Positions 3,489 to 49,498 of a DNA stretch of 64,000 nt are shown piece by piece. The notes beneath the pieces are model-generated. The model did not search any database, was not told where the DNA came from, and saw only the letters and a program-made list of their open reading frames with translations. This DNA comes from a virus: the IMG/VR virus record IMGVR_UViG_3300023179_000027, positions 62,001-126,000 of that record. The stretch is one strand, 5' to 3'. The stretch's first letter is position 1. Every line of letters begins with the position of its first letter. A program made the translations under genes and the position numbers.

Positions 3489-3495
3489 AATCAGC

Positions 3496-3501
3496 TAAAT
3501 A
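3496..3501 (+). promoter_or_regulatory. TAAATA late-type motif 5 nt before a start codon
   Basis: TAAATA ends 5 nt before the ATG at 3507 and there is no Shine-Dalgarno in between. By analogy with the T4 late promoter TATAAATA, transcription would begin at about the A of the ATG, giving a leaderless mRNA. Confidence 0.5.
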
Positions 3502-3506
3502 TTTAG

Positions 3507-5075
3507 ATGCTCTTAAAAATATTTAACGTTTCTAATATCACACTGTTTGTCGCATTATCCTTAAGTGTTATAGCCGCTTGGTATAGTATTCTAGGACTTA
3601 TTGCAATCTTTGCGGCTGCTGTAATACCAATTATAATAATGGGCAGTGCGCTTGAAATTGCTAAGGTAGTAACCACTGTTTGGTTACATAAATATTGGCA
3701 AAACGTAAAATTTACTATGCGCCTTTATTTAGTGCTATCTGTAATTTCACTTGCGTTATTAACTAGTATGGGTATATTTGGTTTTTTATCCAAAGCTCAT
3801 ACCGATCAAAATTTAGTAAGTGGGGATATACTTGCTAAAATATCAATATACGACGAAAAAATAAAAATAGCGAAGGATAATATAGATGCTAATAGGGCAG
3901 CACTTAGACAATTGGATGCGGGCGTGGACCAAACTTTGGCACGTTCAACGTCAGAACAGGGTGCCGAAAGATCGGTACAAATTAGGCGACAGCAAGGTCC
4001 AGAACGTCAGAGACTTTTACGGGAAATCGAAGTCGAACAGAAAAAGATTGCACAACTTAATGAAGAACGAGCTCCGATCGCTGCGGAAGTTCGCAAGGTC
4101 GAAGCAGAAGTTGGTCCTATAAAATATATAGCAGCACTTATATATGGCGATGATCCTGATGCAAATTTACTTGAACGTGCAGTACGTTGGGTGATTATTT
4201 TAATTGTATTTGTTTTCGATCCATTAGCGTTAACATTAGTATTGGCTGCAAATGAAAGTAGAAAATGGGAAAATGCAAGAGAAGAAAACCAGGCTCCTGA
4301 CCCATGGATAGCGGATGTAGGTGAAAAACCAACTAAAGAAGAACTTGAACCAGAAGAACCTTTGATAGATGAACCTGACATACCAGAAGAAACAGTTGAA
4401 CAAGTTTATCTAAAAAAGAAATGGATAGATAAAGTTCCAGGTATTGAAAAAATGAAGCCTGTTATATATACACCTGAACCAAAGGTTATTGAGGAAATCA
4501 GTTGCACAAGTTGCGGGAAAGTTTTAGAAAAGGTTTATAATATAGGACTATTTTGTACAAATAAAAATTGTAGTCTAGGTAGACTACAAGAATATAAAGA
4601 ACCTGAAATAGAGGAAAATGTAGATATACCAACAGAGTCTAAAATTATTAAAAAGGAAATTGTTACAACGAATGTTACAAAAGAAAAACCTTTTAAAGAA
4701 GTTGATGGTGGATATGTAGTATATGACAATAAGGCAATGCAAAAAGATGCATTTAAAGACCTACATCCAGAATTTTTTAAATTAACAGCGGATTCATTAC
4801 ATCCTATATCAACAAAATTTGGGTCAGAGTTTCCAAAATTTGCTAATAAGGGTGATGTTTATGTTAGAGTAGATGTATTACCAAATCGTGTATTTAAATT
4901 TGATGGTGTAAAATGGATTGAGCTTGTTAAAAGTAATACCAATTCATATCTATACGATAAAGAGTATTTAGAATATCTGGTCAAAAAGATTGATTCGGGT
5001 GAATATGATGTAGACTTGTTATCCGAAAACGAAAAATCAGCAATCGAAGAATATTTACGTAACCAAAAAACTTGA
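3507..5075 (+). CDS. Multi-pass membrane protein with coiled coil and zinc site
   Basis: 522 aa. Hydrophobic segments lie at about residues 5-25, 28-50 and 70-95. A long charged coiled coil follows (about 105-205), then another membrane segment (about 225-248) and an acidic cytosolic-looking tail. A four-cysteine knot (CTSC ... CTNKNC, about 333-352) looks zinc-binding. The C-terminal DVYVRVDVLPNRVFKFDG resembles short domains in phage structural proteins. The start is leaderless-type (see the TAAATA motif). Its role is unknown; an envelope-associated function is only inferred. Confidence 0.75.
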   Translation: MLLKIFNVSNITLFVALSLSVIAAWYSILGLIAIFAAAVIPIIIMGSALEIAKVVTTVWLHKYWQNVKFTMRLYLVLSVISLALLTSMGIFGFLSKAHTDQNLVSGDILAKISIYDEKIKIAKDNIDANRAALRQLDAGVDQTLARSTSEQGAERSVQIRRQQGPERQRLLREIEVEQKKIAQLNEERAPIAAEVRKVEAEVGPIKYIAALIYGDDPDANLLERAVRWVIILIVFVFDPLALTLVLAANESRKWENAREENQAPDPWIADVGEKPTKEELEPEEPLIDEPDIPEETVEQVYLKKKWIDKVPGIEKMKPVIYTPEPKVIEEISCTSCGKVLEKVYNIGLFCTNKNCSLGRLQEYKEPEIEENVDIPTESKIIKKEIVTTNVTKEKPFKEVDGGYVVYDNKAMQKDAFKDLHPEFFKLTADSLHPISTKFGSEFPKFANKGDVYVRVDVLPNRVFKFDGVKWIELVKSNTNSYLYDKEYLEYLVKKIDSGEYDVDLLSENEKSAIEEYLRNQKT

Positions 5076-5791: not shown

Positions 5792-6780
5792 AACTTAAAC
5801 TACTTTTAGTAGTTGTATATTTATTTTTATTTGACTTAGCATATGCAAGTAATCCATTAAGAGTATATGGAATAGGCAGGACTTTTGAAGAGGCAAAAAC
5901 AAATGCATTTAAAGTAGCTGTGCAGCATGTTTCGGGAGTTGTTTTGTTAAGTGATAGAGAAAGTAAAAATATAGAACTTACTAAGAATGAAATTTCGACT
6001 TATAGTTCAGGGTACGTAGACAACTTTAATATAGTTTCTCAAGTTTTTAAAAATAATTTATATGAACTTGTAATAGATGTTTATGTAAATGAAAGTAAAA
6101 TAAGTCATAGATTATTTTCTAATAAAGAATCTACGCAACAATTTGAAGGACAAAAGCATTCAACACAGATAAATTCATTATTACAGGAAAAAAAGGCAGG
6201 AGACCAATTAATTACACAGGTATTATCAGATTATCCTAAATTAGCTTATAACATAAAACAATTACCTTATTTTTTAAAATTTGACAACAATCGAAATTTA
6301 TATTTGGTTGTACAATATTCGTTAGAATGGAATAAAAATTTTTTAAAAGCCTTAGAAGAATTATTTGAAATTTTTGATGAGGGCAAATATAATATAGTTG
6401 ACAAATTTCCTGCCAATATTTATTTTGTAAATGAAACTAATTTTAATGAAACTAAAAAACATTATAAATTTAGTGATTTGGTTAGAATTCAGGGGATAAG
6501 AAACCATTTCATAAATCAAAATGAAGTAAGACTTATGTTAACAATAACCAATTTTAATAAGCAAGTTATTGCTAAAAAATGTTATGTCCCTGATTTTGTT
6601 ATAGGCAAACACAAACCAATGTATAGTTTAGGGCAACCTAACGCAATTACGATTTGGCAAAATACGATTGAGAATAATCATGTTGCTTTACCTTTAAATA
6701 CAGCCTATGCAGAAAAAATTTCGACAACTATCAATGAGTTACAGTTGAAAATTGTTAATGATAAAGATTGTAAAAACTAA
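5788..6780 (+). CDS. Secreted protein, FlgT-N/LPP20-like N-terminus
   Basis: 330 aa with a classic signal peptide (LLLVVVYLFLFDLAYA). The following RVYGIGRTFEEAKTNAFKVA resembles the small alpha/beta domain at the N-terminus of FlgT and LPP20-type proteins. The remainder is Asn/Lys-rich. It is co-translated with the upstream lipoprotein (ATGA), so the two may work together in the periplasm. The assignment is by pattern only. Confidence 0.65.
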   Translation: MKLKLLLVVVYLFLFDLAYASNPLRVYGIGRTFEEAKTNAFKVAVQHVSGVVLLSDRESKNIELTKNEISTYSSGYVDNFNIVSQVFKNNLYELVIDVYVNESKISHRLFSNKESTQQFEGQKHSTQINSLLQEKKAGDQLITQVLSDYPKLAYNIKQLPYFLKFDNNRNLYLVVQYSLEWNKNFLKALEELFEIFDEGKYNIVDKFPANIYFVNETNFNETKKHYKFSDLVRIQGIRNHFINQNEVRLMLTITNFNKQVIAKKCYVPDFVIGKHKPMYSLGQPNAITIWQNTIENNHVALPLNTAYAEKISTTINELQLKIVNDKDCKN

Positions 6781-6783
6781 ATA
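6778..6783 (+). promoter_or_regulatory. TAAATA late-type motif 5 nt before clpX ATG
   Basis: TAAATA at 6778-6783 and ATG at 6789, with ttact between them and no Shine-Dalgarno. It overlaps the stop codon of the preceding gene. Predicted to start a leaderless clpX transcript. Confidence 0.5.
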
Positions 6784-6788
6784 TTACT

Positions 6789-7985
6789 ATGTCAGAAATT
6801 AAATTACAACATTGTTCATTTTGCGGTAACCATAAAGATATTGTTAAAAAATTAATTGTAGGGGATGACGTGGCAATTTGCAGTGATTGTATTGTCCTTT
6901 GTAATGAATTAATGAATGAAGACTTAAAGGACGATTTATCTGTAGTTGAGAACAAATCCTTTAATCCTATTGAAATAAAAGAGTATTTAGACAGTTATGT
7001 TGTAGGGCAAGATGAAGCAAAAAAAGTTTTATCCGTTGCTATTTGTAATCATTACAAAAGAATAAATTCAACAGCAAAGGAGTTAGAAATTCAAAAAAGT
7101 AATGTTTTACTTATTGGTCCAACTGGCAATGGTAAAACTTTATTAGCAAAGACAATTGCCAAATATTTAAATGTTCCTTTTGTAGTAGCTGATGCGACTA
7201 GTTTAACAGAGGCTGGTTATGTTGGCGATGATGTAGAATCAATGATATCCATGTTGCTAAATGCAGCAAATGGAGATAAAGCTTTGGCTGAAAAGGGTAT
7301 TATTTTTATTGATGAAATTGATAAAATTGCAAGAAAAAGTGAGAATGTTAGCATAACAAGAGATGTTTCAGGTGAAGGAGTACAGCAAGCATTATTAAAA
7401 ATTGTTGAAGGAACTAAGTGTAGAGTCAATCCTTCAGGTAACAGAAAGCATCCTAATACCGAAATACTAGAAATTAATACAACCAATATTTTATTTATTG
7501 CAGGCGGTGCTTTTGTTGGACTTAAAGACATTGTTAGTAATAGGTTAACAGGGTCAGCAATAGGGTTTGGTGCAGAAGTAAAAACAAAAAATGATAGTAA
7601 AATATTAAATAAAATTACACCAGATGATTTAACTAGGTATGGAATGATACCAGAATTTATAGGACGGTTTACTACTACAATTAATTTAAACGAACTTACA
7701 AAGGATGATTTAATTAAAATTTTGACTAAAGTTAAAAATAATTATATAGACCAATATAAATATTTGTTTAAGATTGATGGTATAAATTTACATTTTACCG
7801 ATGATGCAATTACGTTGATTGCCGAAAATTGTTTAAAATTGAAAACAGGAGCCAGAGGCTTACAAAGCGAGATAGAAAGAATTTTGATGCCACATATGTA
7901 TAATATTTTTGTATATGTTAAAAAAAATGTAAAAAACATAAATATTAATCAGGAGCAGGTACTTGAACCAAAATTAGTAACATGA
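6789..7985 (+). CDS. clpX: ClpX, AAA+ unfoldase of the ClpXP protease
   Basis: 398 aa, near full length for ClpX (about 420). An N-terminal C4 zinc domain has C9, C12, C31 and C34. Walker A GPTGNGKT is at 110-117, pore loop GYVG at 143-146, Walker B IIFIDE at 171-176, the RKH loop at 219-221 and the IGF ClpP-docking tripeptide at 258-260. All features needed to recognise substrate, thread it and dock ClpP are present, so it should be active. It probably works with the phage ClpP at 11959 or host ClpP. The start has no Shine-Dalgarno, and the 3' end overlaps the bS21 gene by ATGA. Confidence 0.95.
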   Translation: MSEIKLQHCSFCGNHKDIVKKLIVGDDVAICSDCIVLCNELMNEDLKDDLSVVENKSFNPIEIKEYLDSYVVGQDEAKKVLSVAICNHYKRINSTAKELEIQKSNVLLIGPTGNGKTLLAKTIAKYLNVPFVVADATSLTEAGYVGDDVESMISMLLNAANGDKALAEKGIIFIDEIDKIARKSENVSITRDVSGEGVQQALLKIVEGTKCRVNPSGNRKHPNTEILEINTTNILFIAGGAFVGLKDIVSNRLTGSAIGFGAEVKTKNDSKILNKITPDDLTRYGMIPEFIGRFTTTINLNELTKDDLIKILTKVKNNYIDQYKYLFKIDGINLHFTDDAITLIAENCLKLKTGARGLQSEIERILMPHMYNIFVYVKKNVKNININQEQVLEPKLVT

Positions 7986-8203
7986 TTTTAAAAGGTAAGA
8001 AAGTTGTAGTACAAGAGAATAATCTTGATAAAGCATTACGAAAATTTAAAAAGAAAATAATGGAAGATGGGTTATTGTTAGAACTACAAAATAAGCAACA
8101 TTTTGTTAAGCCGAGTATTCGTAAAAAATTGTCAAAGGCATATGCAATTAAACGTTGGAAAAAATATTTAAATTCACAAAAGCTGTTTAAAAAATTATAT
8201 TAA
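7982..8203 (+). CDS. rpsU: Ribosomal protein bS21 homologue
   Basis: 73 aa, the usual bS21 size (about 71). The signature is visible in order: VVVQENNLDKALRKFKKK, then a central KQHFVKPSIRKK and a basic AYAIKRWKKYL tail. These match the bacterial VRENEPFDVALRRFKR, F-Y-x-KP and AVKRHAKKL segments. bS21 sits on the 30S platform next to the anti-Shine-Dalgarno end of 16S rRNA. A phage copy could replace the host protein and shift mRNA choice at initiation. It is translationally coupled to clpX (ATGA). See also IF-1 at 23310. Confidence 0.82.
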   Translation: MILKGKKVVVQENNLDKALRKFKKKIMEDGLLLELQNKQHFVKPSIRKKLSKAYAIKRWKKYLNSQKLFKKLY

Positions 8204-9000: not shown

Positions 9001-9306
9001 ATGTCCAATGCTGATACTAAAACAAAAATTAAACCAAATCTCAAATTAAAAGAACCTCCTCTTTATAAAATTATTTACGTAAATGATGATCACACTAGTA
9101 TGGAATTCGTGATAGATTCATTAGTTCAATATTTTAATTATAATAATGACACTGCTAAAACAATAACTTTGGACATACATGATAAAGGTAGTGCTGTTGT
9201 GGCTGTATTGCCATATGAAATTGCCGAACAAAAAGGTATTGAAATAACACTTGAAGCTAGGGCCAGAGGATATCCATTACAAATTAAAGTTGAAGCAGAA
9301 AGTTAG
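9001..9306 (+). CDS. clpS: ClpS, Clp protease adaptor
   Basis: 101 aa. The core YKIIYVNDDHTSMEFVID matches the ClpS signature (N-D-D-x-T-x-M-E-F-V) that forms the N-degron pocket, and the H-x-x-G-x-A-V-V and A-E-x-K segments follow. In bacteria ClpS hands N-end-rule substrates to ClpA, not ClpX, and no ClpA is in this window. It may therefore redirect host ClpAP, or ClpA may lie elsewhere in the genome. The gene has an AAGGT ribosome site. Its stop region overlaps the convergent gene by 4 nt. Confidence 0.9.
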   Translation: MSNADTKTKIKPNLKLKEPPLYKIIYVNDDHTSMEFVIDSLVQYFNYNNDTAKTITLDIHDKGSAVVAVLPYEIAEQKGIEITLEARARGYPLQIKVEAES

Positions 9307-10342: not shown

Positions 10343-10350
10343 TATTTATA
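10343..10350 (-). promoter_or_regulatory. T4-type late promoter TATAAATA
   Basis: Exact TATAAATA on the minus strand, 18 nt before the ATG of the EF-hand gene, with AGGAG in between. It matches the T4 late promoter consensus and serves as the reference for the weaker TAAATA sites. Confidence 0.6.
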
Positions 10351-10360: not shown

Positions 10361-10366
10361 TAAATA
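10361..10366 (+). promoter_or_regulatory. TAAATA late-type motif 6 nt before ATG
   Basis: TAAATA at 10361-10366 and ATG at 10373; no Shine-Dalgarno. Divergent from the leftward late promoter at 10343-10350. Confidence 0.5.
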
Positions 10367-10372: not shown

Positions 10373-11911
10373 ATGCGTGATTTAATTGATATTATTACTA
10401 CTTTATCAGAGGGAGTAACTCTAGCTGCTAGTGAATTTAAGAAAAGACCTAATCGTTATGATACTTTTATTAAAAAAATAGCCAGCGGTGGTAAATTCAC
10501 CACAGTAGATAACCAAGAAGTCATCTTAGATCCAAATGAAGCAGAAAAATATTCACAACTATGGGATCCAAAAACACAAGAATTTACTGATAGTAAAATT
10601 GCACAATTTGCAAAATTAGCTCCTGGGGAAAATTATAAAGGTAAAAATATTATACCAATAAGTAATTTACTTAAAACCACTGAGTTTGGTGGTGCAAGTG
10701 TAGGAGCTGGAGTTGGTCCTACAGCTGGAGGAAAAGCAAGCTATGGTCTCACACCCAAAGCTATTGGAATTGTAGACAGAGATATTCCTACCACTGATTT
10801 ATACGATATTATAATAAACAATCCTGTTCTTAATAGTACGGAACATGGACAAATCGTTATTCAACTTGCTAACTATATTGTATCAGGAGAATCAGTAACA
10901 GTGCCTCCTGAAGTTACTAAAAATAAACAATTGTTAGCCGCAATACAAGATAATGCAGGTGAATATTTAGGTGTGCTAGCATTGATTTATTATAGATCAA
11001 GATTTCCTGCTAGAGCAAGTTTTGAAGAATGGCTGGGTGGTAGTACAGATGATCTAACCTTAAGATTTCCTTCTGCTAGTAATTTTGCATTGGCTGATAG
11101 TTTTGCTACAATTAAAAATCCAAAAACAAATCATAGCGTAAACATTTCAAGCAAAGGAAAAGATGGAGGTGCTGCTCCAGCTATATCAGGACTTAAAATT
11201 CCACCACACATTGCTAGTAATCCTAAACTTAAAACAGGCGTAGATTTTGTAAATCTTTGTAAAACTAAAGGTACGCTAGAACAAGCATTTGATGGTATTG
11301 ATTTATTGTACAAAGCGAATTCAAAATCTATTAGTGAAGTATGGCATCAATTCTTACCATTTAGTAAAAACTTAACCCTTAAACAAGAAATTTTATCAAG
11401 CATAAAAGGCAAGGATGTACAATTTGGAGAAGAATTAAGACCAATTCTTAATAGTGTAGCTAGTAAAGAAGCAACCGACGGAGGAAAAATTGTATATGCC
11501 ATAAAAAGAGAAGTTGCTGATGCCATTAATAAAAAAGATGCCTTACCTGAATTTAGATCGATGGTATTAGAAATTTTAGAAATGAATTTCATACAACAAT
11601 ATACTGATTTTGGCAAAAAACATAAAAATGAATTTACTTTTGATACACAATGGCCTGCTAAACTTGACGGTAATGTAAGTTTAGAAAATAAATCTAGTGC
11701 TAAGGAACCAACAACTGGAGGGTTTAGTTTTAAACTAGGTAGAGTTGATGATTCTGTCAGCGCAGAACCAGGTGAGGATCCTGTGGATGGTGTTGATACA
11801 GAAACGGATTTTATGGCAAAAGCAGCACAATTAGCAGGAACTAGGTCACTAAATTCCCCAAAACCAAAATCTAAACAAGAAGTTGGAAATGTAGGGCGCA
11901 AAAAGCGTTGA
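10373..11911 (+). CDS. Probable virion-associated protein with capsid-targeting-like leader
   Basis: 512 aa, no family recognised with confidence. It starts MRDLIDIITTLSE|G, where L-S-E followed by G matches the T4 prohead-protease site (I/L)-x-E. The central stretch around VNISSKGKDGGAAPA is reminiscent of a nuclease-like D...S-K core, but this is weak. The C-terminal 60 residues are low complexity, Ser/Lys/Pro-rich and end in RKKR. It shares the leader type with the proteins at 23550, 40394, 41577 and 62134. The start is leaderless-type. Confidence 0.65.
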   Translation: MRDLIDIITTLSEGVTLAASEFKKRPNRYDTFIKKIASGGKFTTVDNQEVILDPNEAEKYSQLWDPKTQEFTDSKIAQFAKLAPGENYKGKNIIPISNLLKTTEFGGASVGAGVGPTAGGKASYGLTPKAIGIVDRDIPTTDLYDIIINNPVLNSTEHGQIVIQLANYIVSGESVTVPPEVTKNKQLLAAIQDNAGEYLGVLALIYYRSRFPARASFEEWLGGSTDDLTLRFPSASNFALADSFATIKNPKTNHSVNISSKGKDGGAAPAISGLKIPPHIASNPKLKTGVDFVNLCKTKGTLEQAFDGIDLLYKANSKSISEVWHQFLPFSKNLTLKQEILSSIKGKDVQFGEELRPILNSVASKEATDGGKIVYAIKREVADAINKKDALPEFRSMVLEILEMNFIQQYTDFGKKHKNEFTFDTQWPAKLDGNVSLENKSSAKEPTTGGFSFKLGRVDDSVSAEPGEDPVDGVDTETDFMAKAAQLAGTRSLNSPKPKSKQEVGNVGRKKR

Positions 11912-16301: not shown

Positions 16302-16307
16302 TAAATA
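16302..16307 (+). promoter_or_regulatory. TAAATA late-type motif
   Basis: TAAATA 18 nt before the ATG at 16326 with AAAGGAA in between, so a conventional leader with ribosome site. Confidence 0.4.
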
Positions 16308-19991: not shown

Positions 19992-20266
19992 ACCATCAAA
20001 CAGATGAAATTCTGACTATATTGCAAGAAGAATGCGGAGAGGTAGTGGTTGCAGTAAGTAAGTGCAAACGATTTGGTTTACATGATTTAATTCCAAATAC
20101 TAAAGAATCAAATGTCAAACGTTTAGCAAAAGAGATTGGAGATTTTTACGCAATGGTAGATTTGTTAATTGACCAAAAATTATTTACTATGGATGAAATT
20201 AACGAGTACAAACTTGAGAAGTTTGCTAAGTTAAAGAAATGGTCTAACATAAAAGTTAATAAATAA
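19988..20266 (+). CDS. MazG-like NTP pyrophosphohydrolase
   Basis: 92 aa. EECGE (E-E-x-x-E) and EIGDF (E-x-x-D) are the metal-binding pairs of the all-alpha NTP-PPase fold, separated by about 40 residues. Such phage proteins may clean the nucleotide pool or alter alarmone levels. ATGA overlap with the cupin-like gene. A second MazG-like gene is at 45788. Confidence 0.75.
   Translation: MNHQTDEILTILQEECGEVVVAVSKCKRFGLHDLIPNTKESNVKRLAKEIGDFYAMVDLLIDQKLFTMDEINEYKLEKFAKLKKWSNIKVNK
20260..20265 (+). promoter_or_regulatory. TAAATA late-type motif 5 nt before ATG
   Basis: TAAATA at 20260-20265 (across the upstream stop codon) and ATG at 20271; no Shine-Dalgarno between them. Confidence 0.45.
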
Positions 20267-21595: not shown

Positions 21596-21870
21596 TTTAC
21601 CTATTACATAGCACAGACAAATCTCATCTTGCAATATTAAAAGATAAGCATGTTACAAAACATATTTTGACTAAGTTAGTGTTTGGTGATTATATTTACT
21701 TAGAACTAGAAAGTGATATAAGTGATAAAGTTAAAAGTTATATTGTTTTAAAATATGGAGACAATATTAAACCAATAAGTTCTATCATTAGAGATTTTTC
21801 TCCAATCATGCATGTAGATTATACTATTAAAATTAGTCAGGAACAGAAACATTTGTTAGAAAAAAGCTAA
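21583..21870 (+). CDS. Hypothetical small protein
   Basis: 95 aa, overlapping the upstream gene by 13 nt. Alternating strand/helix pattern with no motif recognised. Confidence 0.55.
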   Translation: MAEVIYLLHSTDKSHLAILKDKHVTKHILTKLVFGDYIYLELESDISDKVKSYIVLKYGDNIKPISSIIRDFSPIMHVDYTIKISQEQKHLLEKS

Positions 21871-21873
21871 ATA
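21868..21873 (+). promoter_or_regulatory. TAAATA late-type motif
   Basis: GCTAAATA overlapping the upstream stop codon, followed by AAGGAG and ATG at 21891: late promoter plus ribosome site. Confidence 0.4.
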
Positions 21874-23309: not shown

Positions 23310-23525
23310 ATGGCAAAAGAAGATGTAATAAAAATGGATGGTGAAGTAGTTGATGTATTACCAAACGCAATGTTTAGAATAAAATTGTCAACAGGTAATC
23401 AAGTTATGGGTTATATCTCAGGTAGAATGAGACAAAATGATATAAAAATTTTGTTAGGAGATAATGTAGAGATAGAATTTAGCCCATATGATTTGACCAA
23501 AGGTCGAGTTGTAAAGCGTAAGTAA
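23310..23525 (+). CDS. infA: Translation initiation factor IF-1
   Basis: 71 aa, exactly the size of bacterial IF-1. It starts [20 protein letters not shown] and keeps the S1-type OB fold hallmarks: [28 protein letters not shown] and [13 protein letters not shown]. These align with LPNTMFRVEL, HISGKMRKNYIRILTGD and TPYDLSKGRIVFR of E. coli IF-1. IF-1 occupies the ribosomal A site with IF-2 and IF-3. A phage-encoded copy is unusual. The gene starts at the base after the upstream stop and precedes a leaderless-type gene. Confidence 0.9.
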
Positions 23526-23539: not shown

Positions 23540-23545
23540 TAAATA
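23540..23545 (+). promoter_or_regulatory. TAAATA late-type motif 4 nt before ATG
   Basis: GATAAATA with TAAATA at 23540-23545 and ATG at 23550, no Shine-Dalgarno. Confidence 0.5.
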
Positions 23546-23549: not shown

Positions 23550-24104
23550 ATGAGGAACTACATCCAGTTATTAGAACAAAAATCTAAACCCCAAGACATA
23601 GAAATTATTCCACTTAACTTCACATATCGTGAAGTTAATCCTGTTCTATCCAAAGAAACCCTTGATTTACACTATGGAAAGCTAGCCCACGGCTATGCAG
23701 AGCGATATAATAAAAAAGAAGGGGATATGGATTTCAATTATGCAGGGGTATTTTTACACAATATATTATTCACTCAGTATAGAGAAGTAAGAAATAATAA
23801 TATACCTAACGGTCCAATGAAAGGGTTTATAGACAAATATTTTAAAAATTATGATAATATGCGTAATCAATTTGAGATAGAAGCTATGAAATTGCAAGGC
23901 AGCAATTGGATTTATTTGGCGTATAATGGTACTATAAAAACAATAAAAAATCATGAAGTAAGAGATGATATATTGTTGTTAATAGATTGGTGGGAACATG
24001 CTTTTTTAATAGATTATGGTAGTGATAAGAAAAAATATTTACGTGAGCAATGGAAGATAATTAATTGGAACGTTATAAATACCCGTTGGGGAAAAAGTTT
24101 ATAA
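23550..24104 (+). CDS. Fe/Mn superoxide dismutase-like protein with capsid-targeting-like leader
   Basis: 184 aa. All four metal ligands of Fe/Mn SOD are in place: H41 (LDLHYGK), H70 (GVFLHN), D146 and H150 (IDWWEHAFLIDY). The NW pair near the C-terminus (IINWNVINTRW) also matches. The enzyme would turn superoxide into peroxide and oxygen. Against the usual start of SOD, this protein has about 20 extra N-terminal residues beginning MRNYIQLLE|Q, with L-L-E at 7-9 like the prohead-protease site in T4 cargo proteins. Start lacks a Shine-Dalgarno. Confidence 0.8.
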   Translation: MRNYIQLLEQKSKPQDIEIIPLNFTYREVNPVLSKETLDLHYGKLAHGYAERYNKKEGDMDFNYAGVFLHNILFTQYREVRNNNIPNGPMKGFIDKYFKNYDNMRNQFEIEAMKLQGSNWIYLAYNGTIKTIKNHEVRDDILLLIDWWEHAFLIDYGSDKKKYLREQWKIINWNVINTRWGKSL

Positions 24105-26030: not shown

Positions 26031-27389
26031 ATGACAACTAGTATCAAAATAACTTCTTTAACAAACATTGGTGGTAATATAGCATATACCACATTAGTTC
26101 CTGTAGTTAATATGACAGGAAGTCCAGAAACTCAAAAAGCTAATTTACAAATAGTAGGAAACTTAATCTTAAGCGGCGCAGGAGGAAGTTTTTTTCCACC
26201 AGCATCTCAATCCATAATTGCTTTAACTGTAGCTAACGCAAGCCAACCTAATATAACAAGTGTAGGAACATTAACTTCTTTGGCAGTATCAGGAAATATA
26301 ATTGCTGGTAACGCCAATTTAGGCAATTTGGTTGTTGCAAACTTTTTTCAAGGTAATGGAAACTTACTGACAAATATTAATTTTAGCAACGGAAACAGTA
26401 ATATTTTGATTCCTAGTGCAAATGGAAATGTTAACATTAGTGTAGCAGGGAATGCTAATGTATTAACTGTGACTGCAACAGGTACAAATATTTCAGGAAA
26501 TTTGACAACATCAGGTAATGTAAATGCAACATATTTTATAGGTGATGGTTCACAACTAACAGGTTTATTAAGTTTACAAGGTATACAAGGCACACAAGGA
26601 AGACAAGGTGTTCAGGGTACACAAGGACTACAAGGACTACAAGGACTACAAGGTTTACAAGGTGTACAAGGCACACAAGGTACACAAGGCATTCAAGGAA
26701 TTCAAGGTACACAAGGCCTACAAGGCCTACAAGGTTTACAAGGTGTACAAGGCACACAAGGAAGACAAGGTGTTCAAGGTACACAAGGTACACAAGGACT
26801 ACAAGGACTACAAGGCACACAAGGTTTCCAAGGCTTACAGGGCTTACAGGGTTTCCAAGGTCTGCAAGGAATATCAGGAGCCAGAGAATATAATGTAACT
26901 AATAGTGGATCAAGCTCTTATGTAATAGATGGAGACAATAACCCAACACTCAATTTGTTAAGAGGATTCACATATATATTTGATATAAATGCTACTGGAC
27001 ATCCCTTTTGGTTTATGTCAGTACCTGGCGGTTATAATGTTTTTAATATATATAATAATGGTGTTACAAACAATGGTGCAGATAATGGTGTAATTACATT
27101 TTCTGTGCCATTTAATGCGCCGAACGTTCTTTATTATACATGTCAATTTCATCCATCTATGGGTGGAAATATTAATATTACTAATGTGGGTCCTACAGGT
27201 ATACAAGGTCTACAAGGAGTACAAGGAGTTTCTGGAGTTACAGGAAACACAGTTCTGTGGGTCACTTCTCCCATATCAAATACTAGTCCTGGTACTACAG
27301 GAGAAGCTTCTTATGATGCAGGGGGCAATTTGTTTGTATGTGTATCTACAAATAATTGGGCAAAATTCACAGGTACTACAAGTTGGTAG
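26031..27389 (+). CDS. Collagen-like tail fibre with inserted cupredoxin-like domain
   Basis: 452 aa. Residues 1-180 are fibre-like and about 181-282 are collagen-like G-x-Q triplets ([10 protein letters not shown]). Residues 283-387 form a beta-sandwich-like domain with ATGHPFWF and [12 protein letters not shown], the His / Cys-x2-His-x2-Met pattern of type I copper sites. A short second collagen stretch and a C-terminal tip follow. The triplets lack the Pro of animal collagen; Q and T fill those positions. Host binding is inferred. Confidence 0.78.
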
Positions 27390-27418
27390 TATTTGTCCAA
27401 AAAAATTTGTAAAAGTAA

Positions 27419-27424
27419 TAAATA
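27419..27424 (+). promoter_or_regulatory. TAAATA late-type motif
   Basis: AATAAATA 28 nt before the ATG at 27452 with AAAAGG in between. Confidence 0.4.
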
Positions 27425-27451
27425 CATAATAGCTTAAAAGGAAAAATAAAA

Positions 27452-28585
27452 ATGGCTAATCCTACCATTGGATCACAGGATCCTGCTGCAAAAATAACTA
27501 ACAAGTTAACCGCAAATGCTGTTATTTTGCCACAAACTACAGCGATTCCGACAACTTCATCTACAAGTAATAATGTAACAGTAACTACCTCTGTCAATAA
27601 TGATACAGGAGATATTGTAACAGTTTATTCTACACCAGGAAGCATTGCCTTATCTTCGGTAGATCAAACAATAAATCAGTATAACACCGTTAGTTCAGGA
27701 GTGGCAAGTATTATAGCAGGGAATAACGTAAGTTTAATTTCTTCAGGATCAGGTGGAACCGGGACTGTTACAATTTCGGCTGTTGGAATACAAGGAATAG
27801 CAGGTGCACAAGGTATGTCAGGAAGTGCTGTAGGTCAAGGGCTACAAGGACCTCAAGGATTACAGGGTATATTAGGTACTCAAGGTACTCAAGGAATACA
27901 GGGTACTTTAGGTACTCAAGGATTACAAGGTACTTTAGGTACTCAAGGACTACAGGGTACTTTAGGTACTCAAGGTACTCAAGGAATACAGGGTACTTTA
28001 GGTACTCAAGGATTACAAGGTACTTTAGGTACTCAAGGACTACAGGGTACTTTAGGTACTCAAGGATTACAGGGATTACAGGGTTCACAAGGCGTACAGG
28101 GCGTAACAGGATCACAAGGACTTACTGGTAATCAAGGCACACAAGGCACACAAGGCACACAAGGCACACAAGGCGTAACAGGATCACAAGGACTTACTGG
28201 TAATCAAGGCACACAAGGCGTACAAGGCGTACAAGGCGTAACAGGATCACAAGGACTTACTGGTAATCAAGGCGTACAAGGCGTACAGGGCGTACTAGGA
28301 TCACAAGGTTTACAAGGAGTACAAGGAGTACAAGGAGTACAAGGCATACAAAGTGTGCAAGGACTACAGGGTTTGCAGGGTACTACAGGCCCTGTGTCTA
28401 GTGTTTTACCTACAACAACCACTACTGATTTAGGAAATTCTTTGGCAACAGTAAATACGACTGGAAAAGCATTAGGGAAAATGGTTTATAATACTTCCAC
28501 TAATCTTATTGTCGTTGCAGCGGGTTCAGGAGCTTTAGATAATTGGTATCCTTCGGATGGCGGTAGTGCAATTACACCTGCATAA
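27452..28585 (+). CDS. Collagen-like tail fibre protein
   Basis: 377 aa. The N-terminal about 110 residues ([17 protein letters not shown] ... [11 protein letters not shown] ... IIAGNNV) are clearly paralogous to the next gene. About 195 residues of G-x-x triplets follow, including a perfect 90-bp tandem duplication. The C-terminus ([20 protein letters not shown] then NWYPSDGG) is the likely receptor-facing tip. AAAAGG ribosome site. Confidence 0.78.
27875..28054 (+). repeat. Perfect 90-bp tandem duplication inside fibre gene
   Basis: Copy 1 at 27875-27964 and copy 2 at 27965-28054 are identical by direct reading (30 residues of GTQ/GLQ/GTL triplets each). Identity at the DNA level points to recent unequal recombination or slippage. 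Confidence 0.85.
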
Positions 28586-30597
28586 TGACTAATAAATTAG
28601 TTAATTCTTCAGATCCATCTGCTAGAAAAGTAATAACCTATCAGAATAGTTTGGATAATTCTATTTCTTATCCTGCATCCACTGCTACCGTAAAAACCAA
28701 TAACAGTTCAAATACAGTTGTAGTAACTACTTCTGTAAATAATAATTCTGGAGATGTTGTAACTGTATATTCTACGCAGGGTAATATAGTTGTAAGTAGT
28801 GTTGACCAAACCATTAATAACTTTACAAGTGTTGATTCAGGTGTTTCGCAAATATTAGCAGGTAATAATGTTATTGTTGATTCAACTTCAGGAAATGGTA
28901 CAGGCACTGTTACAATAAATGTTGATTTAATACAAGGCACTCAAGGAGTACAGGGACTTGCAGGTTCATTTAGCGGGCAGGGTATACAAGGGGTTCAGGG
29001 TACACAAAGCATACAGGGTATACAAGGAATGCAAGGAATTCCAGGATCATTTGCTGGACAGGGTATCCAAGGTCCTTTAGGACCACAAGGACTACAAGGA
29101 CAACAAGGACTACAAGGAATTCCAGGATCATTTGCTGGACAGGGTATCCAAGGAAATCAAGGTACACAAGGAACAACAGGTTCAAGTATACAAGGATTAC
29201 AAGGAACAACAGGTTTAGGCACACAAGGATTACAAGGAACAACAGGTTTAGGCACACAAGGATTACAAGGAACAACAGGTTTAGGCACACAAGGATTACA
29301 AGGAACAACAGGTTCAGGTACACAAGGATTACAAGGAACAACAGGTTCAGGTACACAAGGATTACAAGGAACAACAGGTTCAGGTACACAAGGATTACAA
29401 GGAACAACAGGTTCAGGTACACAAGGGTTACAAGGAACAACAGGTTTAGGCACACAAGGATTACAAGGAGTTCAGGGAACACAGGGAGTACAAGGAGTTC
29501 AAGGTGTGCATGGAACTAACGGTGCCCAAGGTACCGTTGGGTCACAAGGAGTACAAGGTGTACAAGGTAGACAAGGACTACAAGGATTACAAGGACTACA
29601 AGGACTTATCGCCTCACAAGGTACACAAGGTACACAAGGTACACAAGGTATAGGCTCACAAGGCATTCAAGGTATACAAGGCGTACAAGGAACACAGGGC
29701 ATACAGGGCATACAGGGCATACAGGGCATACAGAGTTTGCAAGGAATTCAAGGTTCACAGGGCATATCAGGTTTTTTTGCGGCACAAGGGGTACAAGGAT
29801 TACAGGGTGATTTAGGAATACAAGGAATACAAGGAATACCTGGTAGTTTTGCGGCGCAAGGAATTCAGGGCGTACAAGGGGTACAAGGGTCACAAGGTGT
29901 GCAAGGTCCGCAAAGTGTCCAAGGCACACAAGGCAGACAAGGAGTACAAGGTACACAAGGTACACAAGGACTACAAGGTTTACAAGGTGTACAAGGCACA
30001 CAAGGAAGACAAGGTGTTCAGGGTACACAAGGACTACAAGGACTACAAGGACTACAAGGACTACAAGGACTACAAGGACTACAAGGCACACAAGGAGTAC
30101 AAGGTTTAATAGGAATTCAAGGACTGACAGGAGTAGGAATTCAGGGGTCGACAGGATCACAAGGTACAGTAGGAACTGGCACACAAGGCACACAGGGCCC
30201 AATAGGTAGTGTAACGTTACCTATAGCCAATGGTACAAGCAATATTAATATTCTAAATAATGGACCTATTACATTTAGTTCCAATGCTGTAGGAAATGTA
30301 CTTGTAATTACTAATACTACAGCTAATCTTGATGGTTCTTTAAATATAACTGGGACTCTAAATGTACCTACTATTTCGACTTCCAGTGCAAATACAACGC
30401 CTACTATTTCTAGCGGCACAGTATTAGAACTAACAGCAGTAGAAAAGGTATTTATTACATCTAGTCCATTACAATTAGTTTCTTTGACTACAACTGAGCG
30501 AAATGCAATTACACCTGTAGCAGGTTATCTTATTTTTAATGAAACTACAGGTAATTTTCAAGGCTATAATGGAAGTTCTTGGGTAAATCTAGCATAA
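28585..30597 (+). CDS. Long collagen-like tail fibre protein
   Basis: 670 aa. The N-terminal about 110 residues match the preceding paralogue. About 440 residues of G-x-x triplets are interrupted by short [16 protein letters not shown] hinges. The C-terminal about 120 residues end in a tip ([19 protein letters not shown]). It starts at the final A of the previous stop codon (TAATG). Contains a seven-unit 33-bp repeat. Ends just before a terminator. Confidence 0.78.
29218..29448 (+). repeat. Seven 33-bp tandem repeats in fibre gene
   Basis: Seven units encoding [10 protein letters not shown] followed by L or S, differing by only a few bases, flanked by one diverged unit on each side. In frame, so copy-number change would lengthen or shorten the fibre shaft without frameshift. 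Confidence 0.9.
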
Positions 30598-35823: not shown

Positions 35824-36275
35824 CGATTATTTATCATACCTAAAGCTTCCGTTTCAGTTTTATAAGGTCCTAAATATTCATATCTTTGTATAAAGATAAA
35901 TTTAGGACAAAAAACAGTTTGAAAAATTCCATTTTGTTTTAATACAAAAAATCCTGCCACATGATAACATTTACTTTTTTTAGTTTTTGTAAACAAATGT
36001 AACTTACGTTTTATATCAAATATAGAATTATATATTTTTGTGGGTACAGGAAATTCAGGGTATAAAATTTGCGGCTTTGCGCTACTTGATTTAGTAGGTT
36101 CAAATCTTATTTTTGTAAATTTTGTGATTTCATTATAATTTTTATAATGACTATTGATCCCATCTAATTTTACATCAAAACCTGAACCATCATATACAAC
36201 ATTACCTACCTTTCTAAATCCATCTGTCACTACCCAGTATTGATCTTTAATTATTGTTTTTGCTACTAAAGTCAT
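35820..36275 (-). CDS. Hypothetical protein
   Basis: 151 aa, beta-rich, Lys/Phe-rich. ATGA overlap at its 3' end; CGGAGATAAGA upstream supports the start. Unknown function. Confidence 0.6.
   Translation of the reverse strand: MTLVAKTIIKDQYWVVTDGFRKVGNVVYDGSGFDVKLDGINSHYKNYNEITKFTKIRFEPTKSSSAKPQILYPEFPVPTKIYNSIFDIKRKLHLFTKTKKSKCYHVAGFFVLKQNGIFQTVFCPKFIFIQRYEYLGPYKTETEALGMINNR
35828..35833 (-). promoter_or_regulatory. TAAATA late-type motif 4 nt before ATG (minus strand)
   Basis: Minus-strand GATAAATA with TAAATA at 35828-35833 and ATG at 35823. It lies inside the 3' end of the upstream gene. Confidence 0.45.
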
Positions 36276-44764: not shown

Positions 44765-44946
44765 TACCAACTTTCAACATCAGTAATATCAACTTTAACA
44801 AAGCTTGGATTAAATTCTAATGTTGTTGTTGGTCCTATACCAGACGTACTTTCTTCATGTATTTTTACATAGTCAATTGTATCGTACATTTCAAACACCT
44901 CTTTAATTTTTTCGTATTGATTTCTAGTAATTATATATGTTTTCAT
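44764..44946 (-). CDS. Hypothetical small protein
   Basis: 60 aa from ATG 44946, which overlaps the QueE stop. Simple alpha/beta sequence ending VDITDVESW. Unknown function. Confidence 0.5.
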   Translation of the reverse strand: MKTYIITRNQYEKIKEVFEMYDTIDYVKIHEESTSGIGPTTTLEFNPSFVKVDITDVESW

Positions 44947-45785
44947 TATGTTCCCCATTCGTTTTTAAATAGTAGTACTTGCAGTCTATCACTATAACGC
45001 CAACCTCGTTTCATAGCTGCTAATGCTACATTCTTTGCGTTTAAATTATATACACTATCAACACCACCAACAGGCATAATATAAGTGGGCCCAACAAATC
45101 CTGCATTTCTAAATTCGCTGTCTGCTTTTTCGGCATCTTCAATATCATCTTCAGTTGCTACTACAAATTTTAAATATGTATAGCCAACTTCTTGATATTG
45201 ACATACTATATCTGGATTGATTGCTTCATCCCACTTTTCACCGCTGTTTGGTAACTTTGCACTTACACTAAATGTTACTTCACCGTTTTTACTTTTTGAC
45301 CAATCCTTAAGATAATCATAAAAAACATTTGTTAATTTTTGCGTACCGTTAGTTTCAAACGTAATATCACTTAAATGTTCCATAAAATCATGTCCTAGTA
45401 AATCAGGATAATTACGTTGCCAACCTAACAATGGTTCGCCACCTGTAATAACTAAATGTTCTCCTTGCCAATACCCAGTAGGTAATAAATCTAGTATACT
45501 AGTTACGATTGTATTTGTATCAAGAACTGGGCTAAGATGTTTAAACCTAGGATCCCAACTTGCATAACTATCACACCCAGTAGATACCAATGGTAGTTCT
45601 TTATAATCTTTAAATAATTCTACCTTAATTTCATTACGTTGATTACTAGTTTGTCCTCGTGGCATACCAAATCCACCACATGTAAAGTTACATCCAAACA
45701 CACGAAGGAACACACTTGGTACACCCATATATCGGCCCTCACCTTGGATACTATAGAATAGTTCGCTTACTTTTAACTGTGACAT
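44946..45785 (-). CDS. queE: QueE-like 7-carboxy-7-deazaguanine synthase
   Basis: 279 aa from ATG 45785. SELFYSIQGEGRYMGVPSVF and LRVFGCNFTC are the QueE start, and ITGGEPLLGWQ is the SAM-binding GGEP. The radical-SAM cysteines are unusually spaced: C-x3-C, then about 40 residues to STGCDSYASW. The reaction is CPH4 to CDG in 7-deazaguanine synthesis. Needs a [4Fe-4S] cluster, which the phage IscA-like carrier might help supply. Confidence 0.85.
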   Translation of the reverse strand: MSQLKVSELFYSIQGEGRYMGVPSVFLRVFGCNFTCGGFGMPRGQTSNQRNEIKVELFKDYKELPLVSTGCDSYASWDPRFKHLSPVLDTNTIVTSILDLLPTGYWQGEHLVITGGEPLLGWQRNYPDLLGHDFMEHLSDITFETNGTQKLTNVFYDYLKDWSKSKNGEVTFSVSAKLPNSGEKWDEAINPDIVCQYQEVGYTYLKFVVATEDDIEDAEKADSEFRNAGFVGPTYIMPVGGVDSVYNLNAKNVALAAMKRGWRYSDRLQVLLFKNEWGT

Positions 45786-45787
45786 AA

Positions 45788-46159
45788 TTAAATATTTTTT
45801 ACAAATGATTGTAGTTGTGGTGGTGTCCAACCATCAGGTTTAAGAATTTTACCATCTTCACGACGGCGTACTTTTCCAGTAACTGGGTCAACTTTTGCAA
45901 AATTTGTTCGCATAACTTCGTTCCAAGCAGCTTCACCATCAACCCCTAAACTATGTATTGCTCCTGCCGTAACAACTAAAATATCAATAAGTGCATCTAA
46001 TTGTTCTACTCTGTCATTTAGTTGACAAGCATGAATGAGTTCACCTACTTCTTCTCCAATTAATGATTTATACAAATTGAATTGCTCTAAATTATATGTA
46101 TCTACTGTTTGACCACAAGCTGTCATAAACTGCTTTTGGTCTGATAAAACTTTATTCAT
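45788..46159 (-). CDS. MazG-like pyrophosphohydrolase
   Basis: 123 aa. GEEVGELIHACQ (E-E-x-x-E) and LDALIDILVVTAGAIH (D-x-x-x-D region) match the all-alpha NTP-PPase fold; the C-terminal VDPVTGKVRRREDGKILKP is also typical of this phage subfamily. Sits between queD and queE, with AAAAAGGAAA before its ATG. Confidence 0.75.
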   Translation of the reverse strand: MNKVLSDQKQFMTACGQTVDTYNLEQFNLYKSLIGEEVGELIHACQLNDRVEQLDALIDILVVTAGAIHSLGVDGEAAWNEVMRTNFAKVDPVTGKVRRREDGKILKPDGWTPPQLQSFVKNI

Positions 46160-46170
46160 TTGTTTCCTTT

Positions 46171-46641
46171 TTAAACGAATTCATTATCTGACCTACTTCC
46201 AACACGCATTGCCATGTTAGCATCAGTCTCTCTTACTTCCACTTTACAACACCACACTCTTTCATCATACCCATAATCTTTTAACCAACAAGTATTAATG
46301 TATTCGTATAACCAATCAGCAATACCTTCACACCCTGTTCGTTCTACCATTGTAATTTTTGCTAGTCCCAATTCTCCCAATCTAGATAATTCATTTTTCA
46401 TAGGATCATCTTCTGCTACTAGTAGCGTATGATCGAACCATTCTTCCAATAATCCTTTTAAAGGTTTAAGACTACCAAAATCTACTACCCAGTTTCTAGC
46501 ATCAAGCGTTTCACTTTCAAATTCAAAATGAAAACTCAATGCATATCCATGTATCAAATTACAATGACTATCCGCACGCCATTGACGATATGCCACTGGA
46601 CCGATTTGGTTATATGTTTTTGTTGAAATAAATTTTGCCAC
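46171..46641 (-). CDS. queD: QueD-like 6-carboxytetrahydropterin synthase, GTG start
   Basis: 156 aa. The start is GTG behind AGGAGG with 6-nt spacing. The T-fold pattern is clear: DSHCNLIHGYALSFHFEFE, WVVDFGSLKPLK, FDHTLLVAEDD and VRETDANMA. The catalytic Cys of the H-x-C loop is kept. The usual H-G-H is H-G-Y and the early AAH is VAY, so zinc ligands differ from E. coli QueD. Converts the FolE product towards CPH4. Confidence 0.8.
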   Translation of the reverse strand: MAKFISTKTYNQIGPVAYRQWRADSHCNLIHGYALSFHFEFESETLDARNWVVDFGSLKPLKGLLEEWFDHTLLVAEDDPMKNELSRLGELGLAKITMVERTGCEGIADWLYEYINTCWLKDYGYDERVWCCKVEVRETDANMAMRVGSRSDNEFV

Positions 46642-46720
46642 CTCTTGCCTCCTTTAAGCTGAGTAAGTTTGATGACATGCAGAATATTTAAAGTGGGATG
46701 AATGCCTTAGACCACTAATA

Positions 46721-46921
46721 CTATTTAATCAAATCGCTAAACATTTTTTTTCTTCCAGTTACTGTTAATGTGTTATCAAATATTTCTGTTACACGTTGTA
46801 ACATAGCACACGCCAGCATAAGTAATTCTTTATCATCATTCGTCATCATTATTTGTTTATCAATAGGTTTCATTAGTTCCGACATTCGTAGTATAATACT
46901 ATTATCTTTTGAATTCATCAT
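46721..46921 (-). CDS. Hypothetical small helical protein
   Basis: 66 aa, Met/Leu-rich helices. ATGA overlap with the upstream sulfotransferase-like gene. Unknown function. Confidence 0.5.
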   Translation of the reverse strand: MMNSKDNSIILRMSELMKPIDKQIMMTNDDKELLMLACAMLQRVTEIFDNTLTVTGRKKMFSDLIK

Positions 46922-47592
46922 AAAAGGGTATTTAATATATCGTTGTTCTGTTTAAAATCAATTTTTGCTAAATGATCGCTAAAAATTGTGTGCAATTCTT
47001 CATAGTTACTAGGTTTTTTTGTTGGTTTAAAGTGTTTTTTTGAATTAAACGATAAATCTTCATAATATAAGTCTAAATCAAAATTGTAATTAAAATTTTC
47101 ACAGTATGTTATTGCTAATATTCCATAATTTATAACCTTTTTTAAAACATCTTCATAAATGGGAATTTTTTTATCTTCAATCAATCTATTACTTTTTTTA
47201 GTGTTTGACCAAATAAGTTCATCTCCTTTATTGATAATATCAATAAGTGTGCAAATGTATAGACTAATTAATTGTTCAATTATATTTCTTCGTCTTATCC
47301 TAACAATGGTATATTTTTTTTGCAAAATATTTTGTACAAAATAATTAGGGTATAACTTTTTTAAATGTATAGCATGAATTTTTGTTACAAAATTGTTCGT
47401 TGCTATTATTTCATCAAACTTTTTTAAACTTTTTGTATCATTATAATTATCAAATAATAAAGGTTCAACTCCTGTACCAACATAGTGTATTTTATTATCA
47501 CTTAAATAATTACAAATAGTATCATAAAGAACATTAGAACCAGATCTTGGACTAGAAAGTATAACAATAGGTAATTTTAAATTGGTAAACAT
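46918..47592 (-). CDS. Sulfotransferase-like protein
   Basis: 224 aa. LPIVILSSPRSGSNVLYDTI is the 5'-PSB P-loop that binds PAPS in sulfotransferases. A later RIRRRNIIEQLISLYI matches the 3'-phosphate-binding R..S region only loosely. Paralogous to the next gene upstream. Acceptor unknown, possibly a glycan. Confidence 0.7.
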   Translation of the reverse strand: MFTNLKLPIVILSSPRSGSNVLYDTICNYLSDNKIHYVGTGVEPLLFDNYNDTKSLKKFDEIIATNNFVTKIHAIHLKKLYPNYFVQNILQKKYTIVRIRRRNIIEQLISLYICTLIDIINKGDELIWSNTKKSNRLIEDKKIPIYEDVLKKVINYGILAITYCENFNYNFDLDLYYEDLSFNSKKHFKPTKKPSNYEELHTIFSDHLAKIDFKQNNDILNTLL

Positions 47593-47595
47593 TTT

Positions 47596-48270
47596 TTATG
47601 TCGATTTAAGGGTCAATGGATGAACTTTTATAGTTTTTATTAACGAGTCAAAAGTTTTATCTTGTACAATGTTACTAACTCTATCAACTAATTCTTTATA
47701 ATTACTAGGAGGTTTTGGTTTGTAATACTTCTTTGAGTTGAATATTATATCCTCGTACCATAAATCTAAATCAAATTTACAATTAAAATTTTCTAAAAGA
47801 TGTATATGGTGCATGCCACGTATTATTACTTGTTCCATAATAAATTTATCAATTGGAATTTTTTTATTTTCAATGTATTTTTTATTTGATTCTTTTGAAT
47901 TTTGGAAAATTTCTTTTTCTCCATACACATGACTTATGTAAAGACTTACTAATTGTTCTGCAATATTTTTTCTCCTAATCCTTATTAAAAAGTATTTTCC
48001 TTGAAGTATATTATCAAAAAAAAACATTGGATAAATTGTTTTAAGTTGAAAAACATGAAGTTTACAAATGAAATTATTTGTTGTTAAATTGTGGTTTAAT
48101 TTTTCATAACGTTCAAAAGACCGATCTTCATGTGTAATTGGTTCACTGCCTATGTCTGTAAAATTTACATTATTGTCATTTAAATAATTACGAATAGTGT
48201 CTAGTAAAACAGTAGAACCAGATCTTGGACTAGAAAGTATTACCAATGGTAATTTTATATTTTCCCACAT
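47596..48270 (-). CDS. Sulfotransferase-like protein (paralogue)
   Basis: 224 aa from ATG 48270. LPLVILSSPRSGSTVLLDTI P-loop, then RIRRKNIAEQLVSLYISHV and FDLDLWYEDI blocks shared with the gene at 46918. Tandem duplication with divergence. It follows the kinase-nucleotidylyltransferase gene, which ends at 48272. Confidence 0.7.
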   Translation of the reverse strand: MWENIKLPLVILSSPRSGSTVLLDTIRNYLNDNNVNFTDIGSEPITHEDRSFERYEKLNHNLTTNNFICKLHVFQLKTIYPMFFFDNILQGKYFLIRIRRKNIAEQLVSLYISHVYGEKEIFQNSKESNKKYIENKKIPIDKFIMEQVIIRGMHHIHLLENFNCKFDLDLWYEDIIFNSKKYYKPKPPSNYKELVDRVSNIVQDKTFDSLIKTIKVHPLTLKST

Positions 48271-48271
48271 A

Positions 48272-49111
48272 CTATAAACCAAGTTGTTTCCTTATTTCTG
48301 TTGCACTTATTTTTGTTATTTCTTCATCAAAAAGTTCTTCTCCACTTGTATATCCTACTCCCCGGCCCCAACCAATGTGTACAATATTTGGAACTAACAT
48401 AATCTCATATTGACCTTGATATAATGGATCTAAATCACGTTTTATATAATTTTTAACTTCTTCAACACTAAACGGGTTACTATTTTGCCATCCTTGTACA
48501 TCACGTATTTGTATTATAACTTGTCCTGTCTTACTTAGCAAGCGTTCAAACAAAGCACGATGCCCAAGATGCCATGGTTGCCAACGACCTAACATTTGCA
48601 CTGTTTCTTTACGCCAATCAAAGATTGGTCTACGCTTTTTCCTAATAATCATTTCACCAACATAAGGTACCCAACGTTCACAATTTTGTTCATTAATTCG
48701 AAAATCATAAATGTCAGGGGGCACAAATGCTTTGTTCGTATCTTTATACCGACCTTTATCAATTGTATCCATCCATATGGTCCAATCAGCTTTAAAATTA
48801 TTTCTCATTTCAGGTAAAGGAGCAACAAAATCACAAATTACATATTCCCCATTACAACGAATTGCAAATTCTGCCATACGCAAACTTTGACGGATTCTAC
48901 CTTCTTTACTAAAGTCCCAATCATTAAATTTTTTACGTATATCATCTGCGTTAAACCAATCTACTTTTACATTAAGCATTGGATAAGGGCGATCCGAATC
49001 AATTTTGGATAAAGACTTTTCTCCATTTATCTCTAAATATTTTTTTAAACGTTCTGCAAAATATGTTTTACCCGAACCTGGTAGTCCCATTATTAATATT
49101 TTCTCTGTCAT
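48272..49111 (-). CDS. APS-kinase-like / nucleotidylyltransferase fusion
   Basis: 279 aa. Residues 1-155: P-loop GLPGSGKT (9-16), NADDIRKKFNDWDFS (54-68), ICDFVAPLPEMR (92-103), in the order of APS kinases. Residues 170-279: GRWQPWHLGH (175-184, the HxGH site) and ISATEIRKQ near the end, as in NMN-adenylyl-/cytidylyltransferases. With two sulfotransferases downstream, a PAPS-supplying role is attractive; NAD or sugar-nucleotide synthesis are alternatives. Confidence 0.7.
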   Translation of the reverse strand: MTEKILIMGLPGSGKTYFAERLKKYLEINGEKSLSKIDSDRPYPMLNVKVDWFNADDIRKKFNDWDFSKEGRIRQSLRMAEFAIRCNGEYVICDFVAPLPEMRNNFKADWTIWMDTIDKGRYKDTNKAFVPPDIYDFRINEQNCERWVPYVGEMIIRKKRRPIFDWRKETVQMLGRWQPWHLGHRALFERLLSKTGQVIIQIRDVQGWQNSNPFSVEEVKNYIKRDLDPLYQGQYEIMLVPNIVHIGWGRGVGYTSGEELFDEEITKISATEIRKQLGL

Positions 49112-49341: not shown

Positions 49342-49498
49342 AATTATTCCCAGTACTATAAAATAGTACAACTGCTACAAATAAAATTATTAACCATAAT
49401 GGATAAGGATTTGTTATTAAAGGCCTATGATGTGGGCATCTACCCTGATTATAATCACAATTGGGACTATACTCTTTTTTACAGATATTACAACTCAT
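49331..49498 (-). CDS. Small zinc-finger membrane protein
   Basis: 55 aa read directly. N-terminal Cys/His cluster (CNICKKEYSPNC, then CPHH) followed by a membrane helix (LWLIILFVAVVLFY). Starts in an ATGA overlap with the folE stop. Unknown function. Confidence 0.6.
   Translation of the reverse strand: MSCNICKKEYSPNCDYNQGRCPHHRPLITNPYPLWLIILFVAVVLFYSTGNNYGF

Follow-up and report, generated by a model that had tools for sequence, protein, structure and literature searches.

Several genes in the viral DNA analyzed here have the hexamer TAAATA a few nucleotides before their ATG and no site resembling a Shine-Dalgarno (SD) sequence, which raises the question of whether the hexamer is a promoter that places the 5′ end of the mRNA at the start codon itself. 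The window, i.e., the whole 64,000-nt stretch that was analyzed, covers positions 62001-126000 of a 130,630-nt virus record (IMGVR_UViG_3300023179_000027). Genes and their starts were called without use of the TAAATA motif. An earlier note on this DNA had listed seven starts of the form TAAATA-N4-6-ATG, and all seven are present where it placed them. None has an SD-like site, and the spacers between box and ATG measure 5, 5, 6, 5, 4, 4, and 5 nt for the starts at 3507, 6789, 10373, 20271, 23550, 35823, and 62829, respectively.

On the plus strand, the first box (3496-3501) precedes a candidate leaderless gene of 522 aa (3507-5075) with no Pfam or PHROG match. The second (6778-6783), whose TAA doubles as the upstream stop codon, lies before a predicted leaderless gene for a ClpX-like ATPase (6789-7985; AAA_2, 8e-32; zf-C4_ClpX, 6e-13), and the third (10361-10366) before a candidate leaderless gene of 512 aa (10373-11911). 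The box at 20260-20265 precedes a gene of 114 aa starting at 20271, and that at 23540-23545 a gene for an Fe/Mn superoxide dismutase-like (SOD-like) protein, again predicted to be leaderless (23550-24104; Sod_Fe_C, 1.6e-20). The remaining two sites are on the minus strand: the box at 35828-35833, within the end of the upstream gene, precedes a 69-aa gene starting at 35823, and the box at 62835-62840 precedes a candidate leaderless gene of 231 aa (62134-62829). The other sites named in the note were also recovered, with the exact sequence TATAAATA at 10343 (minus strand) and 24100 (plus strand) and TAAATA at both 24592 and 40334.

We placed the phage by its T4-like family B DNA polymerase (56145-58853, minus strand; PHROG 262, 1e-200). 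By this protein, its nearest named relatives are the jumbo phages Phosso, Atu_ph07, XaC1, RaK2, and GAP32 (43-49% identity), and 80 IMG/VR contigs are closer relatives. Within the clade, a gp55-family late sigma factor is encoded by the record G001 (E 2e-32) and by 13 of 14 further large contigs; none was found in the window's own record, a 130-kb fragment. In Phosso the polymerase gene is followed by the clamp gene, and the corresponding gene here encodes 243 aa (55335-56063). The IF-1 protein of the window has its best match (64%) in a Proteobacteria MAG, followed by scattered phyla, and is uninformative on the host.

The enrichment of the arrangement was measured against 12 control hexamers composed of the same letters as TAAATA. 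TAAATA stands 4-6 nt before 7 of the 110 starts in the window, compared with a control mean of 1.08 and a maximum of 3 (Poisson p 1.4e-4). The earlier note had expected fewer than one such coincidence; the excess is real, although that expectation was slightly too low. The check that it had proposed, for enrichment in the full genome, gave the same answer outside the window, where the 66.6 kb that had played no part in the original observation contain 8 such starts among 91, with 0.92 expected (Poisson p 5.5e-6). The hexamer shows no overall excess in the window (139 observed, 167 expected), so its position alone is unusual. In seven clade records (G000 to G006), 15, 27, 10, 6, 7, 8, and 7 starts have TAAATA at 4-6 nt, while the controls reach at most 4.

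The arrangement is also conserved among orthologues, which mostly share 40-80% protein identity. Counts refer to distinct sequences with TAAATA at a gap of 4-7 nt, and each set has the window gene, or a copy nearly identical to it, among its members. The box is kept in 49 of 59 orthologues of the gene at 3507, in 25 of 31 for that at 10373 (most of the remaining ones being truncated), and in 6 of 6 for that at 35823, 4 of 4 in large contigs. Conservation is incomplete for the SOD-like gene at 23550 (40 of 67), for the gene at 62829 (30 of 45), and for clpX at 6789. The last was rejected as a conserved exact TAAATA site, given that only 4 of 59 orthologues have the exact word; instead, TAAGTA occurs in 33 and TAAATT in 7, with the 5-nt spacing unchanged. 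A true late gene, that of the terminase (gp17 homologue), shows the arrangement in each of the records G001, G002, and G003.

Across 2150 clade genes, the spacing of TAAATA is bimodal, with a sharp peak at 4-7 nt, a broad peak at 15-26 nt, and few genes between. The two peaks differ in their relation to the SD site, which is found in 5 of 136 genes at the short gap versus 153 of 191 at the long gap (Fisher 6.6e-49); about half of the starts have one. The 4-6 nt group comprises 74 independent protein families. Examples of the leadered class in the window are the TATAAATA box at 10343-10350 (minus strand), 18 nt before a gene starting at 10324 (SD TTAGGAG), and, on the plus strand, the TAAATA boxes at 16302-16307, 18 nt before the ATG at 16326 (SD AAAGGAA), and at 21868-21873, 17 nt before the ATG at 21891 (SD AAGGAG). 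The flanks are the same in both classes, with G or A at −8, A at −7, and C or T after the box. In the clade as a whole the element reads (G/T/A)ATAAATA, is position-specific before starts, and belongs to the 8-bp type exemplified by TATAAATA. Alignments of 80 and 112 sites contain no conserved column upstream of the box, i.e., no −35 element.

The genomic context of the box-at-start genes is likewise that expected of promoters. They are divergent from the previous gene in 24 of 80 cases, compared with 98 of 1333 for all genes, and overlap it in 5 of 80, compared with 475 of 1337. One divergent pair, whose starts lie 40 bp apart (18453 on the minus and 18494 on the plus strand of the record), has a box before each gene. 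The start codon is ATG in all 80 clade box-at-start genes.

Transcription from a T4-type late promoter begins about one helical turn downstream of the box and is coactivated by the sliding clamp and gp33, and a leaderless mRNA is one whose 5′ end lies at or within a few nucleotides of the start codon. The late promoter of T4 itself is an 8-bp TATA box used with the sigma factor gp55 (PMC2988020). The element described here resembles it in being the same kind of 8-bp box without a conserved −35 element, in the AT-rich sequence just downstream, and in the presence of a gp55 relative in the clade. It differs in its position, as most T4 boxes are found 21-29 nt ahead of the start codon, together with an SD site.

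The bases next to the start codon give an indication of where the RNA would begin. Among SD-led sites, 60% carry A five bases past the box; T4 prefers the sixth base. Of the 43 independent families with 5-nt spacing, 37 have a pyrimidine at −1 (p 8e-8 against a purine background of 54%); with 6-nt spacing, T is found in 13 of 14 at −1 and in 13 of 14 at −2. The same avoidance is seen at the 5-nt sites of the cultured pelagiphage HTVC008M, with a purine at −1 in only 1 of 12 (p 0.003). These patterns fit an RNA start on the A of the AUG. Orthologues of 23550 and 62829 avoid purines at −1 less strongly, and 7-nt spacers among orthologues often end in ACT, where some leaders may be 2-3 nt long. 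Because of this looser rule among orthologues and the 7-nt spacers ending in ACT, we give leader lengths as 0-3 nt rather than as strictly zero.

We propose that the (G/T)ATAAATA box serves as a late promoter of the T4 type, which host RNA polymerase would read with the phage late sigma factor gp55. Located 15-26 nt before the ATG, it would produce a short leader holding the SD site. Located 4-7 nt before the ATG, it would direct the RNA start to the A of the AUG or up to about 3 nt earlier, yielding leaderless or near-leaderless late mRNAs, with the terminase gene and the genes at 3507, 10373, 35823, and 62829 as candidate examples; ribosomes would then start on the 5′ AUG without SD pairing. 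On the sequence comparisons presented here, we regard it as very probable that these phages have gp55-type late promoters at two positions and that the 4-7 nt class yields mRNAs with leaders of 0-3 nt. These genes might also be read through from promoters further upstream, and such transcripts would have leaders. For the note's central suggestion, leaderless late mRNAs from T4-type late promoters, the comparative evidence is strong; its account of what drives them is taken up below.

Three other explanations were weighed against this reading. Chance might have produced the arrangement in a genome of 67-68% A+T, helped by upstream TAA stops and flexible start calling, and at two of the seven window sites (6789 and 20271) the box does use or overlap the upstream stop codon. 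Across the clade, however, just 5 of 80 boxes supply the upstream stop with their TAA, and the same peak is present in a relative (G005) with 44.5% GC, which rules out AT-richness as its cause. Together with the control hexamers, the held-out sequence, and the conservation in orthologues, this led us to reject chance or a stop-codon artefact for the set, leaving it a vanishingly small probability, although single sites such as that at 20271 could still be coincidental.

A second possibility is that TAAATA acts in translation, as an AU-rich, SD-independent ribosome site on mRNAs with ordinary longer leaders, and is not a promoter. The hexamer does sit where the SD would lie and replaces it, and Bacteroidota, the predicted hosts of freshwater bS21 phages, as a rule initiate independently of SD sites (PMC9723584). 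Against this, the box, flanks included, is also found 15-26 nt upstream in combination with an SD site; it shows an excess at divergent genes and a deficit at overlapping ones; and it is the late-promoter motif of CBB, GAP32, and T4 (PMC5259590), lying further upstream in RaK2, Phosso, and T4. We consider a translational role unlikely, and a Bacteroidota-type start context was rejected as the whole cause, since about half of the starts have an SD site and the box is found upstream of SD sites as well. Finally, the boxes might be late promoters of genes whose true starts lie further downstream behind their own SD sites, which would make the mRNAs leadered. The start codons used here are predicted ones, which leaves room for such an error, but orthologue N-termini begin at the same ATG, the HTVC008M starts that were checked agree with the deposited annotation, and the ATG is the first possible start of its frame within 60 nt in 110 of the 136 genes at gap 4-7. 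Moreover, a spacing of 4-7 nt would not be maintained if translation began elsewhere, and we judge misplaced starts to be very unlikely.

The short spacing is not a general property of T4-like phages. TAAATA at 4-6 nt was found before none of the starts in RaK2 (480 genes) and T4 (0 of 254), and no start has it at 4-7 nt in Phosso (first 400 kb), Atu_ph07 (first 200 kb), or GAP32 (first 200 kb). In the scanned stretches of the last three, the box lies mostly 20-36 nt before starts, and all five phages have it with normal leaders only. A raw pattern count in Atu_ph07 gave 15 versus 9, with none among the called starts. P-SSM2 also has the box mostly 20-36 nt before starts, plus four sites at 5 nt. 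HTVC008M, in which gp55 is annotated, has TAAATA exactly 5 nt before 12 genes, all with ATG starts. Most are structural, and they include those annotated for the tail tape measure, DNA end protector, head closure, tail tube cap, baseplate wedge, and tail completion proteins. In the tail-tube-cap family, the spacing is exactly 5 nt in 30 of 30 distinct marine members.

To our knowledge, most known leaderless phage mRNAs are isolated examples, lambda cI being one. The predicted mRNAs described here resemble that type (PMC9031893) in lacking an SD site and in beginning at or close to the AUG; they differ in that dozens of predicted late genes, structural ones included, share one promoter class. 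The ATAAATA motif had already been predicted as a late promoter before structural genes in CBB and GAP32 (PMC5259590). The motif is the same and the phages are related through their DNA polymerase (GAP32 about 43% identical), but both CBB and GAP32 carry IF-3, GAP32 has no TAAATA 4-6 nt before starts in its first 200 kb, and the word "leaderless" does not occur in that paper. The freshwater bS21 jumbo phages (PMC9723584) are similar in being large freshwater phages with bS21 near structural genes and transcribed late; the paper describing them mentions neither promoters nor leaderless mRNA nor initiation factors. We found no report of leaderless late phage genes among the open-access papers searched.

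The earlier note had further suggested a late switch to leaderless translation driven by phage-encoded IF-1 and bS21. Both genes are present in the window on the plus strand: bS21 (7982-8203; PF01165, 1.1e-14) directly after clpX, with TAAATA (7939-7944) 37 nt upstream, and IF-1 (23310-23525; PF01176, 1.3e-21) with no late box directly upstream. A late box precedes all 16 other clade bS21 genes examined (L637-L652), at a constant 37 nt in 10 of them, a spacing that may partly reflect the coding constraint at the end of clpX, and late expression of bS21 has been reported for freshwater phages (PMC9723584). For IF-1, a late box was found at only 1 of 17 clade genes. Among 14 large clade contigs, IF-1 is encoded in 14 and bS21 in 13, and IF-3 was found in none; G001 shows the same combination, with IF-1 and bS21 but without IF-3.

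The comparisons do not support this part of the proposal. Late boxes serve at least as many SD-led genes as leaderless ones (191 versus 136), so a wholesale late switch is unsupported. Phosso carries both IF-1 and bS21 without a leaderless peak, and the two are therefore insufficient for leaderless starts; HTVC008M has the peak and bS21, with no IF-1 or IF-3 found. A driving role for IF-1 is unsupported on these grounds and on the rarity of late boxes at its genes. A different correlate is the lack of IF-3. All eight named jumbo relatives tested (RaK2, Phosso, Atu_ph07, XaC1, Vibrio 2.275.O, GAP32, CBB, and XbC2) carry IF-3, and no leaderless excess appeared in them in the counts made. Since IF-3 is listed in a review as inhibiting leaderless translation, and IF-1 as enhancing it (PMC9031893), the absence of IF-3 is a suggestive correlate of the leaderless class, though with few independent lineages it is no proof.

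Taken with the marine data, these comparisons suggest that leaderless translation is a regular part of the late programme in this T4-like phage and its freshwater and marine relatives. An entire class of late promoters would thereby be positioned to make leaderless mRNAs in widespread freshwater and marine phages, one of them a cultured isolate. The placement of promoters at the start codon is also a likely reason that late promoters were missed in pelagimyophages, where late-promoter prediction failed (PMC7029224). More tentatively, and with some doubt, at least two separate T4-like lineages, the freshwater and soil jumbo phages and the marine pelagimyophages, might have moved many late promoters onto start codons while keeping both leaderless and SD-led late mRNA classes, with a toolkit of late-promoter bS21, often IF-1, and no IF-3 that might tune host ribosomes towards 5′-AUG mRNAs late in infection. 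The leaderless late class would give the phage bS21 and IF-1 genes, so far unexplained, a concrete substrate, and the box-to-ATG spacing would provide a rule for correcting start codons.

Several additional observations were made in the window and its relatives. In the window, three successive proteins (26031-30597) have collagen-like repeats or tail-fibre matches; tblastn of the tail-fibre sequence against phages gave no match. Genes for QueE, QueD, and GTP cyclohydrolase at 44946-50175 (minus strand) suggest 7-deazaguanine DNA modification. In G001 (84742-84802, plus strand) and at the matching site in G002, TAAATA-N5-ATG opens a six-codon mini-frame, ATGCATTTTAGGTGGTAA (stop included), which lies in a conserved leader with a normal SD for the tail sheath gene further on; it is possibly a leaderless leader peptide. 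In L011, three small consecutive genes at 18162, 18489, and 18728 (58162, 58489, and 58728 of the record) share a near-identical 20-nt leader that ends in TTGGTAGTATACT immediately before the ATG and is unlike SD or late sites. The genes for the zinc-finger ClpX-like ATPase (6789-7985), bS21 (7982-8203), and a protein that looks by eye like ClpS (9001-9306) lie close together in the window. Host bS21 has reportedly been proposed to be removed, an idea that a protease helper near bS21 would fit.
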